A stretch of 64,000 nt of DNA from Planctomycetaceae bacterium (GTDB lineage: Bacteria; Planctomycetota; Planctomycetia; Pirellulales; UBA1268), in the NCBI GenBank assembly GCA_011523305.1, contig WTHB01000152.1, positions 35,115 to 99,114 on the forward strand, written 5' to 3'. Each line of letters starts with the position of its first letter. Position 1 is the first letter of the stretch. Made by a program: the position numbers and the translations under genes. Positions 8,121-12,898 of the stretch are shown here, in pieces. The notes beneath the pieces were generated by a model. That model ran no database searches. It was given only the letters and a program-made list of their open reading frames with translations, and had not been told where the DNA came from.

Positions 8121-8137
8121 CGCAACCATGGCGTCAG
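8117..8137. terminator. Perfect hairpin shared by the convergent BBP7 and Popeye-like genes
   Basis: CTGACGC-aaccatg-GCGTCAG; each arm contains the stop codon of one of the two convergent genes; no U-tract. Confidence 0.45.
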
Positions 8138-8829
8138 CCTGCGGACTGCCCGTGGGCCCGTAGTTTGGCCACGACGTCACGGCCAAGAATGCCTCGCAGC
8201 TTGTGGGCCAAGGCGGCCCGTCGCTCGAGAAACTCGTTCAGGTCCGCCTGGGACCAGACCAACAGCCGGCTGGCCTCCGTTGCCACGACATCAGCGGTCG
8301 CCTTCTCCCCACTGAGAAAGCTCATCTCACCGATGAACTGCCCCGGCTGCAGCCTGGCGATCACACGATCATCAACCCGCACCTCAAGCCCACCCTGCTT
8401 CAGCACCATCATGTCGGCCACGACGCTGTCCCGCTCGACAATCATTGAGCCGGCGGGAAGATCACGCCACTGACCAACTTTCATGAGTTTGCGGAATTCA
8501 CCAGGAGCGAGATCAGCGAACACCGTGTCGTAGAGTTCCTGCTCAGCACCACCCAGCCGGCGAGGCCGCCGCTCCCGCAACAGAATGCCGATCTGTACGA
8601 GATTCACCGACACAAATACAGCGTTCCAGCCGATCGGTGCCCACAGAATGTGGTCGCTGCAGTGGCAGTAGAATGGTATGAGAGAAAGCCCGGCGGCAAT
8701 CGTCAGCACCCGCAGCCAGAGAATGTCCCGCACCAGATACGAACACAGATAGAGCACATTGGCGACATGCACCATGTCGCCCACGCAGGGACACCACATG
8801 ATCGTGTGAAACAAAACCGCTGAAGCCAT
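8134..8829 (-). CDS. Popeye (POPDC)-like protein: three TM segments plus a cyclic-nucleotide-binding fold
   Basis: N-terminal hydrophobic helices, WNAVFVSVNLVQIGILLRERRP followed by a cNMP-binding-like domain ending LLVWSQADLNEFLERRAALAHKLRGILGRDVVAKL, closely resembling the vertebrate POPDC layout as recalled. Confidence 0.75.
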   Translation of the reverse strand: MASAVLFHTIMWCPCVGDMVHVANVLYLCSYLVRDILWLRVLTIAAGLSLIPFYCHCSDHILWAPIGWNAVFVSVNLVQIGILLRERRPRRLGGAEQELYDTVFADLAPGEFRKLMKVGQWRDLPAGSMIVERDSVVADMMVLKQGGLEVRVDDRVIARLQPGQFIGEMSFLSGEKATADVVATEASRLLVWSQADLNEFLERRAALAHKLRGILGRDVVAKLRAHGQSAG

Positions 8830-8871
8830 TCCTGCCGAACCTCCACCCGGGATTACCGTCACCCAGACAAA

Positions 8872-11817
8872 TCAACTGCACCGTTTCTTGGTAATGGCTG
8901 GTTTTTCATCAGCCTCCGTGACCGGCTGTTCATCACCAGCCACCTCGAATCGCCAGCCGTCAATCACCGTGCCGTCTGTCTTCAGGTGTGACAACAAAAA
9001 CAATAAGCGGCGGCGGGCGTCACCCTCTGGGCCCTCAGGAATATCGGACAACCGGTCCCGCAGGTAGTAGGGGGCCCAGGCCTGTGAATAGAGCGTCGCC
9101 TTCAGCCGCAGCTTCTTGCAGTCAAAACACTCCGGCAACGTCACCCGGTAACTGACAATGTCGCTGCCAGCCCCATCGGCATACTGCGGGTCATCACCCA
9201 CGCCGTGCGGATGAGTCGCCGCGACAAAGGCCGACGGCATCGACGGATCAGGCCCAGACGCTGACCAGCCCCGGGGCAACAGCCGATTGTCTTTCACATC
9301 CTGAGCCCGGTGCAGAAAACTGGTGGTGAATCGGCCCTGAGCATCCTGGGTCAACTCTTCATACACCTGAACCTGATCCGGTCTTTCGATCACCCGATGG
9401 TGTGGCTGGTACGCCTGGATTTGCTGGCCGTTCTGACTGACGTCGGCGAAAAACTCCGAGGGCAACACGCGACCATCTTCGCCAACCAGAACGCCGGCAG
9501 CATTGGTCTGCCCCGAGGCCCAAATGATCCGTTCGTGGCCGTGCGTGCTGTCAATCAGCAGAAACTCAATCCAGAGCCGGCGAAAGCCGACACCACTGGG
9601 CAGCCGATGGCCCGTGAGGTTGGTCACCTTGACGTCGGCAGCAATCGTCTGGCCCGCTGTCTCAACATTCAGGATCTCAAGCGTGGCCGTATTCTTGCGG
9701 GCATTCTGCACATAATTGTCGATCGCAAAGTGAATGCCCTCCACGCCAGTCTCGTAGTCGGGCATTCGCACCCCAAGCACATCGCCAAACTGCCGAAAGG
9801 CCTCTAGCAGAAAGACGTTGAGCCCCTGGAAGGTGTGCCGCCGATAGCCGTCTTTGCGGAAGGTAACCTGGTGCTCTTCCGTCGGCAGTTTGTTATCAAC
9901 CTCTGGATATTCCTGATCCTGCAGCACTGCGATCTTGGTGGCGATCTGGTCGATGGCTACATCACCATCTGGGCTTTCATAGCCCTTGGGCATGTGGCAG
10001 TCCTGACAACTGCGGGACTGGGCTGTCCGGCCAAACTCATCCTGGAAGCTGCTGTTGAGCCATTCCAAATAGGTTGCCTGCTCAATTCGATGCATGAAGC
10101 CCTGGAAGTTGGGGTTCTTCTCCGAGGCCAGCAACTGGGCAACCTCATCCCGCGGCGGCTGCTCAGCCCCGACCGGCGGCCTTTCCAACGGCCAGTCAAC
10201 CACCGGCAGGTTGATCACATGACAGGTGCCGCACATCCGTGATGACTGAATGAACGGATTGTGCTTTGGCACCGCCCCCAGCGTCGTCTGCATCGGCTTG
10301 GTCACCACATCCTTGAAGGGGCCATAGATTTCACTGGCTGGCCCCATCGTGAACTGACCAGTGATCGTCTTGGCGAGAAACCCCGGCAGATCTTCGCCGT
10401 CATCCACCATGCCGTGGCAGACCGTGCAACTGATGCCGTCACGGGCCAGGCCACCATAGTGATGATGCGGGTCGTTGTGGTCTTTCAATTGAAACCAGTC
10501 ACGGCGGAAGGTCGCCGCGTCAGCCCAATAAGCGTCCCCCACCCCGTGGTCAAAGTCATGCTGCCGTTTGCCCATCGCCCCATGGCATCGCAGGCAGGTA
10601 TTGACCACCTGATCACCCGCGGCCGCAGCCTGACTGGCCGGCAGATCCCGGGTGAGCTGGGCAAGTTCGCTTTCCAGCTGGGCATGAAAAACCGGGTCGC
10701 GGCCGGCCAAGCCCATCGGCGACCACCGCCACTCACCATAGGGCGACACGTTCAGCCCGCCCCGCGCGGTCTCCAAAAACATCACCGGGCCAGAAGAGTG
10801 CCGGCCGGTGGCACCGCTGTGACACATCAGACATTGATCCGACGTGATGAATCGCTGAGGCCCTCGGCCATCCGGGGCAACATGGTCGTGTGACTCCGGG
10901 GGAAACTTCTCAACCTCAGGGTAGGTCACATGGCGGGCTGGGGCATAGGTATGCAGAAAGGCAAAGTTGGGCCGGGCCGGGCCCGGTGCCTGCGGGGCAA
11001 CCAGTGACGACGGCTCGGGGTCATGCCGAAAGTCATACGGCTGCAGCACCGGCGGAATCTGCCGCCAGGTGGTATCGGTGTAGAACCGGATTGGCTCCCC
11101 CGGAAAGCCGGTGATGTTTCGCAGTGACGAGAACGTGCCGCCCTCTTCCGCCACGGAATGACAGCGAACACAGGCCAGCACCACGCCCGCCTGCGGATAG
11201 GCAAACGTCTCGGGCGTGTCCTGCTCCTGGCCCGGGTAGACACTCGCCCAGAACCAGCCGCTCGGCGACCCGGCGGCATCCTTGATCATCACATCGCAGC
11301 CAGCCGACGTTGGGAGCCGCAGCAGAGCGAGCAGTTCATCTTCAGTGGCGTCTTCATACCGGGCCGCGGGTGGTGGCAGCATCTCCTTGATGATCATGCC
11401 GCCGTCCGGAATCACACCCTCTCGCGGCTGTTTCTTTGGAGCCAGCCCCGCATCCCGACCCTGGGGCCAGAAGTCTGGATCACCCGTGAGCCAGTACATC
11501 ACCTTCGGTGAATAAAAGCACCGTACTGCCGGATGGGTGCCGTAATATTTCCCTTTGACATAGGCACCGGTGTCACGCACCCGCTTGTCATGGCTCCAGC
11601 CCAAGTCGGTCGCATAGCCGCGGCTGCGGATGAACGGGAAAAGCAGCGTTTCGTAGTCGATGTGACTCATCGACGTCGGCAGCGGCAGTGGATGCTCCTG
11701 CGCCCCAAAACCAGGCGGCTCGGCCGCCACCAGCCGGGCTGCTGCCAGCATGGCCGAACAGAGCAGCAGCGTTCGCCAGCCCACGCTGCGAGACGCCATG
11801 ACGATGCGAGATGCCAT
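8872..11817 (-). CDS. Multihaem cytochrome c (at least six CxxCH motifs), secreted
   Basis: CVRCH, CLMCH, CLRCH, CTVCH, CGTCH, CQDCH motifs; signal peptide from MASRIVMASRSVGWRTLLLCSAMLAAARLVAAEPP. Confidence 0.85.
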   Translation of the reverse strand: MASRIVMASRSVGWRTLLLCSAMLAAARLVAAEPPGFGAQEHPLPLPTSMSHIDYETLLFPFIRSRGYATDLGWSHDKRVRDTGAYVKGKYYGTHPAVRCFYSPKVMYWLTGDPDFWPQGRDAGLAPKKQPREGVIPDGGMIIKEMLPPPAARYEDATEDELLALLRLPTSAGCDVMIKDAAGSPSGWFWASVYPGQEQDTPETFAYPQAGVVLACVRCHSVAEEGGTFSSLRNITGFPGEPIRFYTDTTWRQIPPVLQPYDFRHDPEPSSLVAPQAPGPARPNFAFLHTYAPARHVTYPEVEKFPPESHDHVAPDGRGPQRFITSDQCLMCHSGATGRHSSGPVMFLETARGGLNVSPYGEWRWSPMGLAGRDPVFHAQLESELAQLTRDLPASQAAAAGDQVVNTCLRCHGAMGKRQHDFDHGVGDAYWADAATFRRDWFQLKDHNDPHHHYGGLARDGISCTVCHGMVDDGEDLPGFLAKTITGQFTMGPASEIYGPFKDVVTKPMQTTLGAVPKHNPFIQSSRMCGTCHVINLPVVDWPLERPPVGAEQPPRDEVAQLLASEKNPNFQGFMHRIEQATYLEWLNSSFQDEFGRTAQSRSCQDCHMPKGYESPDGDVAIDQIATKIAVLQDQEYPEVDNKLPTEEHQVTFRKDGYRRHTFQGLNVFLLEAFRQFGDVLGVRMPDYETGVEGIHFAIDNYVQNARKNTATLEILNVETAGQTIAADVKVTNLTGHRLPSGVGFRRLWIEFLLIDSTHGHERIIWASGQTNAAGVLVGEDGRVLPSEFFADVSQNGQQIQAYQPHHRVIERPDQVQVYEELTQDAQGRFTTSFLHRAQDVKDNRLLPRGWSASGPDPSMPSAFVAATHPHGVGDDPQYADGAGSDIVSYRVTLPECFDCKKLRLKATLYSQAWAPYYLRDRLSDIPEGPEGDARRRLLFLLSHLKTDGTVIDGWRFEVAGDEQPVTEADEKPAITKKRCS

Positions 11818-11839
11818 GAAAGTGTCCTTAAGGTTTCCT

Positions 11840-12898
11840 TCAACCAGTGAGGTGCCGATCCAGAAAGCCCGCCATCTCAGCAAACACATCCTGCGACTCA
11901 TCCGCAAACGGATTGATGAAGTAGTGAAAGTGCGCCGCCCCCTCCACCAGGTGCAGCTCGGCCGGTACGCCAGCCCGCCGCAGTTTTCGGTGCACCAGAA
12001 CCGTTAGGCTCAAAAAGAGGTCGCGGGTGCCGGAAAGTAGCATCGTGGGCGGGAACCCACTCAGATCACCCCGCAAGGGTGATAGAAACGGGTCGCTCAG
12101 GTCATGACTATTCGCATAGAGCCGCGCCGCTCGCTGCGGGGCCGCCCGATAACTCACCAGAATATTGTCGAGCCATTCGTTCGTCCGAAAACTGTCGCCA
12201 ACTTCCTCCAGGTCAGCCCACGGCGTCTGAATGGCAAGCGCCGCTGGCAGCGGCACCCCCTCCTGCTTGGCCCGCAGTGTCGTCGCCAGTGCCAGGCCAC
12301 CACCGGCAGACCCTCCGCACAGTCCAACGCTTCCTGGTGAATGGCTTTCCACCACCGCCTTCCAGACCGCAAAGGCATCATCGAGAGCGGCCGGAAAGGG
12401 GTGGTCTGGTGGCATGCGGTAATCGACCGCGACCACCTTGATGCCACAGTTCGCCGCAATCACGACCGCCTCGAGCAGGCTTGCCCGCCCCGGGTTGAAG
12501 ACATAGCCACCGCCATGGGTGTTGACCAGCAGCCGCCCCTGATGCTGTTGCCGCATCGCAGCAGGTGCGACCTCAAAGACTGGCACCCCGGCCACCACGC
12601 CTTCGGTGACGGTGACTCCGAGCCGCTCCCGAATCTGCTCGACCATTCCGGCCGTGGTGACCGCCAGATCAGCCACTGCCTGCCGCCAGCCAGCGGCATC
12701 GGGTGGGTCGAGCTTCCATTCCGAATCGCGATAGGGCAGCGCAATCGTCCGGCCGAATGCCGCACTCACCGACCTGGGTACCGGAATGGTCCGGCCCGGC
12801 ACCGTACGGGGACCGGGGGACTGGTTGAGCTGCCCCACCGCCTCTTGCAGCGCCGGATAACCGGAGAGGGGCAACCCCGCGTGGTCCTCAGATGTCAT
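11840..12898 (-). CDS. Alpha/beta hydrolase, HSL-type esterase
   Basis: HGGGY oxyanion motif (NTHGGGYVFNPG), nucleophile GGSAGGG, C-terminal GAAHFHYF. Confidence 0.9.
   Translation of the reverse strand: MTSEDHAGLPLSGYPALQEAVGQLNQSPGPRTVPGRTIPVPRSVSAAFGRTIALPYRDSEWKLDPPDAAGWRQAVADLAVTTAGMVEQIRERLGVTVTEGVVAGVPVFEVAPAAMRQQHQGRLLVNTHGGGYVFNPGRASLLEAVVIAANCGIKVVAVDYRMPPDHPFPAALDDAFAVWKAVVESHSPGSVGLCGGSAGGGLALATTLRAKQEGVPLPAALAIQTPWADLEEVGDSFRTNEWLDNILVSYRAAPQRAARLYANSHDLSDPFLSPLRGDLSGFPPTMLLSGTRDLFLSLTVLVHRKLRRAGVPAELHLVEGAAHFHYFINPFADESQDVFAEMAGFLDRHLTG

Follow-up and report, generated by a model that had tools for sequence, protein, structure and literature searches.

A planctomycete gene related to animal POPDC proteins and its bacterial and marine-phage relatives, with a conserved pocket that lacks the phosphate-binding arginine

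The window, a stretch of 64,000 nucleotides from a planctomycete contig, encodes on its minus strand a 231-residue membrane protein with a C-terminal cyclic-nucleotide-binding-type domain (CNBD; 8134..8829). Judged from sequence and Pfam, this gene is a genuine relative of the POPDC proteins of animal heart and muscle, with homology running along the whole protein, and it appears to belong to a sister family of animal POPDC that is found in bacteria and phages. The pocket of this family has lost the Arg that binds the cyclic phosphate in ordinary CNBDs and is otherwise constrained and strongly conserved in the alignments. We give about an even chance to the reading that the protein is a membrane-anchored ligand switch, with a conserved but retuned CNBD pocket, acting on a membrane partner.

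The open reading frame starts with an ATG at 8829 and ends with a stop at 8134-8136, with coordinates and translation exact, and a GGAGG about 10 nt before the ATG (8840..8844, minus strand) is a probable ribosome-binding site. In the Pfam comparison that the preliminary description had proposed, the protein scored above the cut-off for both PF04831 (POPDC1-3; 54.6 bits, cut-off 28.1, residues 19-225) and PF00027 (cNMP_binding; 56.7 bits, cut-off 27.5). Both profiles were also matched by all 26 relatives tested, PF04831 at E values up to 0.001, and PF04831 had no match in the 14 control genomes. Contamination is unlikely because its closest relatives (79% identity) come from planctomycetes and a BBP7 barrel of planctomycete type adjoins the gene.

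The window protein is about 24% identical to POPDC1, and a profile-profile comparison of 17 bacterial members with POPDC1-3 aligned residues 19-229 with an E value of 8.5e-19. The POPDC1, POPDC2 and POPDC3 sequences used here are reconstructions whose PF04831 scores (157, 171 and 162 bits) identify them as POPDC and are not a letter-by-letter check. Fusion of a generic CNBD with unrelated membrane helices, leaving a superficial likeness to POPDC, would account for the strong matches of the CNBD alone to many ordinary CNBDs, but PF04831 was above the cut-off in every member tested, and in hhalign the membrane part alone scored 56.3 against POPDC, far more than any of 60 column-shuffled controls, which reached at most 15.8. 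The remainder of the protein scored 65.0 against a shuffled maximum of 18.1. We ruled out such a fusion by the membrane-only match above shuffles and leave it next to no probability. The proposed POPDC homology, including the membrane region, is thus upheld: what was found is not a generic CAP-family domain lacking a Popeye transmembrane region, and neither of the contrary outcomes accessible to sequence that the preliminary description had named was seen. Single-sequence support for homology of the membrane part was uneven, because the bacterial membrane-only HMM matched POPDC1 clearly (33.8 bits), POPDC3 weakly (just 12.9 bits) and POPDC2 not at all.

AlphaFold2 models of the window protein (mean pLDDT 82.5-84.6) contained three helices, the CNBD and C-terminal helices, and together with hydropathy they agreed with the layout suggested earlier, a short N-terminus, about three transmembrane (TM) helices and a cNMP-binding-like fold. 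With a pTM of only ~0.6, the models do not establish how the membrane part packs against the CNBD. According to AlphaFold2, hydropathy and alignment, TM helix 1 comprises residues 16-32 (8734..8784) and has an HVAN motif common with POPDC, TM helix 2 comprises residues 36-56 (8662..8724), and TM helix 3 comprises residues 63-87 (8569..8643) with WN...F..VN...ERRP common with POPDC1. The CNBD core follows at residues 120-203 (8221..8472; Pfam, AlphaFold2 and Foldseek), and the C-terminal helices at residues 194-230 (8140..8250; alignment and AlphaFold2) include LGRDVVAKL, comparable to IGKDITNKL of POPDC1; all these segments are on the minus strand. Foldseek with the model returned CNBDs, the best PDB match being 3mdp with a TM-score of 0.85 by target length, and a sequence search of the PDB found no POPDC or Popeye structure. 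Because RERRPRR follows TM helix 3, we infer that the CNBD lies on the cytoplasmic side and the N-terminus outside.

In the window protein (8605-8830) and its relatives, Cys residues were seen before TM helix 1 and in the loop between TM helices 2 and 3, on the predicted periplasmic side. The N-terminal Cys, as CPC or PC, and the loop Cys co-occur in the cytochrome-linked members L001, L007 and L010-L013, and L005 has the loop Cys only, in the ORF as read. POPDC1-3 have Cys at comparable positions, possibly by coincidence. In another relative (L040:7429-8310, genome G361; also L008), a POPDC-like membrane part is followed by a repeated tail that is not a CNBD.

In a canonical CNBD, the Arg of the phosphate-binding cassette neutralises the cyclic phosphate and a Glu contacts the ribose. 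The cassette of the window protein, GQFIGEMSFLSGEKATADV (residues 163-181; 8287..8343, minus strand, by alignment), is near-canonical, of the form GQFIGEMSFL...ATA.V, with one residue swapped: Ala177 (8299..8301, minus strand) aligns with the phosphate-binding Arg. The motif quoted in the preliminary description is present, and the Arg loss noticed earlier (SGEKATADV for GEPRTATV) was real and proved to be family-wide, as Arg was present in 0 of 89 family proteins (28 bacterial and 61 phage). The bacterial residues in this column were Ala in 18, Thr in 8, Asn in 1 and Ile in 1, with two of the 28 sequences (L006 and L020) truncated or frame-broken, and all 61 phage proteins had Ala. Among the best hits listed for five of the same genomes, 24 of 31 distinct other CNBDs had the Arg; therefore, the loss is specific to the family.

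The rest of the pocket is kept. In the joint alignment, the ribose Glu (E168) was retained in 27 of 28 bacterial and all 61 distinct phage proteins, and the Ser two residues past it in 25 of 28 and 61 of 61, respectively; G163, Q164, F165, G167, E168, M169, S170 and F171 were invariant in 26 diverse members. That the pocket is near-invariant down to ~30% identity within the family suggests a working pocket rather than decay. The parallel drawn earlier with the divergent Popeye pocket did not survive, since the cassette is otherwise canonical and both POPDC motifs are absent: GEMS stands at the positions aligned with DSPE, and in place of FQVT the window protein has ATADV and its relatives have ATATC and similar sequences. 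By alignment, Glu203 of POPDC would correspond to Ser170, and L003, L004 and the trypanosomatid PKA would have Glu there. L003 and L004, both planctomycete, are the only members with a Glu that would thus share the position of POPDC Glu203 and of the nucleoside-binding Glu of the trypanosomatid protein.

The missing phosphate Arg speaks against cNMP binding of the ordinary kind, and the label of cyclic-nucleotide receptor that the gene had been given is a guess. A true receptor like POPDC, in which cAMP, cGMP or a cyclic pyrimidine would be held by other pocket residues, is possible, though we lean against it. Such a receptor would fit the retained ribose Glu and the class III cyclases (PF00211) detected in 25 of 25 gene-carrying genomes tested compared with 5 of 14 control genomes, although these cyclases may simply be common in the phyla concerned. 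It fits less well with the Arg loss in 89 of 89 proteins when other CNBDs of the same genomes usually retain the residue, with the absence of DSPE and FQVT, the proposed substitutes in POPDC, and with the absence of a cyclase adjoining the gene in the window or among the neighbour genes examined. The single PF00211 gene of the source genome is on a different contig, C70. POPDC1 has been reported to bind cAMP at ~118 nM without a canonical cassette (PMC6562197), and cAMP keeps some probability as the ligand because of this binding and the cyclases encoded by all 25 genomes.

In the membrane-anchored switch that we favour, computation supports the homology and architecture, the loss of the Arg throughout the family, the conserved pocket and the linkage of the genes; the topology, the ligand, the switching step and the partner are inferred. 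The protein would be anchored by its three TM helices, its N-terminus lying outside, and the CNBD would bind a small ligand able to do without the Arg, such as a nucleoside or a cNMP gripped in another way. Binding would shift the C-terminal helices, and the shift would pass through the membrane helices to a partner in the membrane or periplasm. In the Pirellulales lineage this partner probably has a link to the neighbouring six-haem cytochrome c, and in phages it may belong to the lysis apparatus. An Arg-less CNBD that binds nucleosides is known from the trypanosomatid PKA (PMC10959531). A nucleoside site of exactly the trypanosomatid type is weakened as a direct model, because most of the family has Ser in place of its second Glu.

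The cytochrome gene lies 42 nt upstream of the POPDC-like gene in the same direction (8872..11907, minus strand; N-terminal start uncertain) and encodes ~1000 residues with six CXXCH motifs, and it and the BBP7 barrel are the neighbours of the POPDC-like gene in the window. A relative of the cytochrome adjoins the gene in the same orientation in L010-L013 and divergently in L037, L039 and L009. The long form of the cytochrome, a class defined after viewing the match list, occurs in 7 of 392 Planctomycetota genomes, and PF04831 was found in 5 of these 7 versus 4 of the 385 without it (Fisher p 3e-8, with genomes that are not independent). Gene and long cytochrome adjoin in four of the five genomes that carry both. 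G100 and G103 carry the long cytochrome and lack the gene, which rules out an obligate cytochrome partner, and the gene is often found without the cytochrome; the linkage is therefore lineage-specific. No POPDC-like ORF was found beside the long cytochrome in G100, G103 or G361, and the relative with the non-CNBD tail in G361 is away from it. The search of the PDB for a relative of the window cytochrome found none. Its N-terminus has a weak P460-like match, with the homologue L086 the only one above the cut-off, which suggests a distant P460-like N-terminus.

Elsewhere, the neighbours of the POPDC-like gene vary between clades, and some other loci have an unassigned cluster there. An AhpC/TSA-type (SelL-related) redox gene is directly upstream in a Nitrospinota-labelled MAG (L015:415-1044) and in a planctomycete (L038:8319-8936), and a gene with paired CBS domains is directly upstream in the Bacteriovoracaceae-type loci L018, L019, L044 and L046.

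Low-copy neighbourhoods that differ between clades, together with the lost Arg and the relative whose membrane part leads into a non-CNBD tail, would also be compatible with a CNBD that binds no ligand and serves as a membrane-anchored scaffold for dimerisation or docking, a role that several CNBD-like domains have been proposed to play. However, few parts of the family vary as little as the cassette and a scaffold has no obvious need for such constancy, and we think this explanation unlikely.

PF04831 was found in 9 of 392 Planctomycetota genomes; in the phylum of L016, on the Bdellovibrionota side, 14 of 291 genomes had it, and in the phylum of L014 1 of 297. In a contig scan, the carriers were labelled Pirellulales, Planctomycetia, Deltaproteobacteria, Nitrospinota and Bacteriovoracaceae, the labels of MAGs being as deposited. 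A tree of the CNBD region split POPDC and the bacterial family from 29 other CNBDs of the same genomes with support of 100/99; POPDC is represented in it by three vertebrate sequences on a very long branch (3.15 to 3.6 changes per column), and its rows contain a short linker exclusive to the family that may help this split. The sparse and patchy distribution among Planctomycetota and Bdellovibrionota is what acquisition of an animal or protist POPDC gene by bacteria might leave behind. Against such acquisition, the bacterial pocket is near the canonical CNBD cassette whereas the POPDC pocket is derived, and the bacterial and phage members are diverse (to ~30% identity) and form several supported clades, whereas POPDC is a long branch. 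We therefore regard it as very unlikely. The bacterial pocket is probably nearer to the ancestral state.

A scan of IMG/VR detected full-length relatives with 33-40% identity on 92 encoding contigs, of which 80 were kept (L087-L166); these are mostly marine, judged from the IMG/VR contig names. Their 61 distinct proteins form one clade (100/100), the nearest bacterial members being Bacteriovoracaceae with weaker support (94/75). Some of the contigs are clearly T4-type phage: four, of 66 to 132 kb, have a T4-type portal (E below 1e-70) together with a terminase. Neither was seen on 24 of 28 contigs tested, which is expected of fragments and is not proof. Coding is nearly all on one strand (143,981 versus 5,444 aa). 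Directly upstream of the gene in 35 of the 80 contigs is a cluster with an SLT transglycosylase representative matching phage endolysins, directly downstream in 8 of the 80 is a holin-family cluster, and a late-sigma-factor-like gene is nearby in one large contig group; each of these clusters was identified from one or two annotated representatives. The one phage member searched against the 50,697 deposited phage genomes of INPHARED had no match, PHROGs has no family for the POPDC-like protein, and the matches in BFVD and on plasmids were at the level of the CNBD part only.

Reviews describe POPDC as having originated with animals. A wider scenario would have POPDC not arise with animals, its three TM helices and CNBD being bacterial with a retuned pocket, and would have T4-type marine phages carry a small-molecule-responsive lysis regulator in the lysis region; taken as a whole, we hold it to be speculative and quite improbable. 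In the open-access literature that we searched, no paper described a Popeye protein from bacteria, planctomycetes or phages, and none gave an account of this family, of its pocket or of the phage members; automatic annotation may already flag the bacterial PF04831 matches. The sister family offers a route to the origin of POPDC, small proteins with a convenient soluble domain for structural studies, and a natural test case for CNBD function once the phosphate Arg is gone, and the phage copies beside lysis genes pose a separate, testable question.

Among known systems, the Pycsar effectors PycTM and PycTIR also bear a CNBD, in PycTM combined with membrane helices (PMC11224242), and the PycTIR models of PADLOC match the CNBD part of the family. 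Unlike in Pycsar, the CNBD segment alone matches, the Arg is lost and no cyclase adjoins the gene; a Pycsar effector was ruled out on the CNBD-level matches and the lack of an adjoining pyrimidine cyclase next to a gene flanked by cytochrome c and the BBP7 barrel. With CRP/CAP, PKA-R, PKG, the CNG/HCN channels and MloK1, the family has in common the CNBD fold and a cassette with the ribose Glu; it differs from canonical CNBD proteins in the family-wide absence of the phosphate Arg, and among the matches listed its membrane part is unrelated to channels or DNA-binding domains. The trypanosomatid PKA regulatory subunit likewise has the cassette Arg replaced and the ribose Glu retained, and an extra Glu there contacts the ribose 3' and 5' hydroxyls where most family members have Ser (PMC10959531). 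Compared with animal POPDC, the family has a near-canonical cassette in place of DSPE and FQVT, a shorter N-terminus and no variable C-terminal tail. Like POPDC1/2/3, it has three TM helices followed by a CNBD-type domain, presumably cytoplasmic here, and matches the profile over its whole length, and it shares with them HVAN, WN..F..VN, (K/E)RRP, LY..F, the W before the C-terminal helix and the IG/LG-x-D-x-x-x-KL ending.
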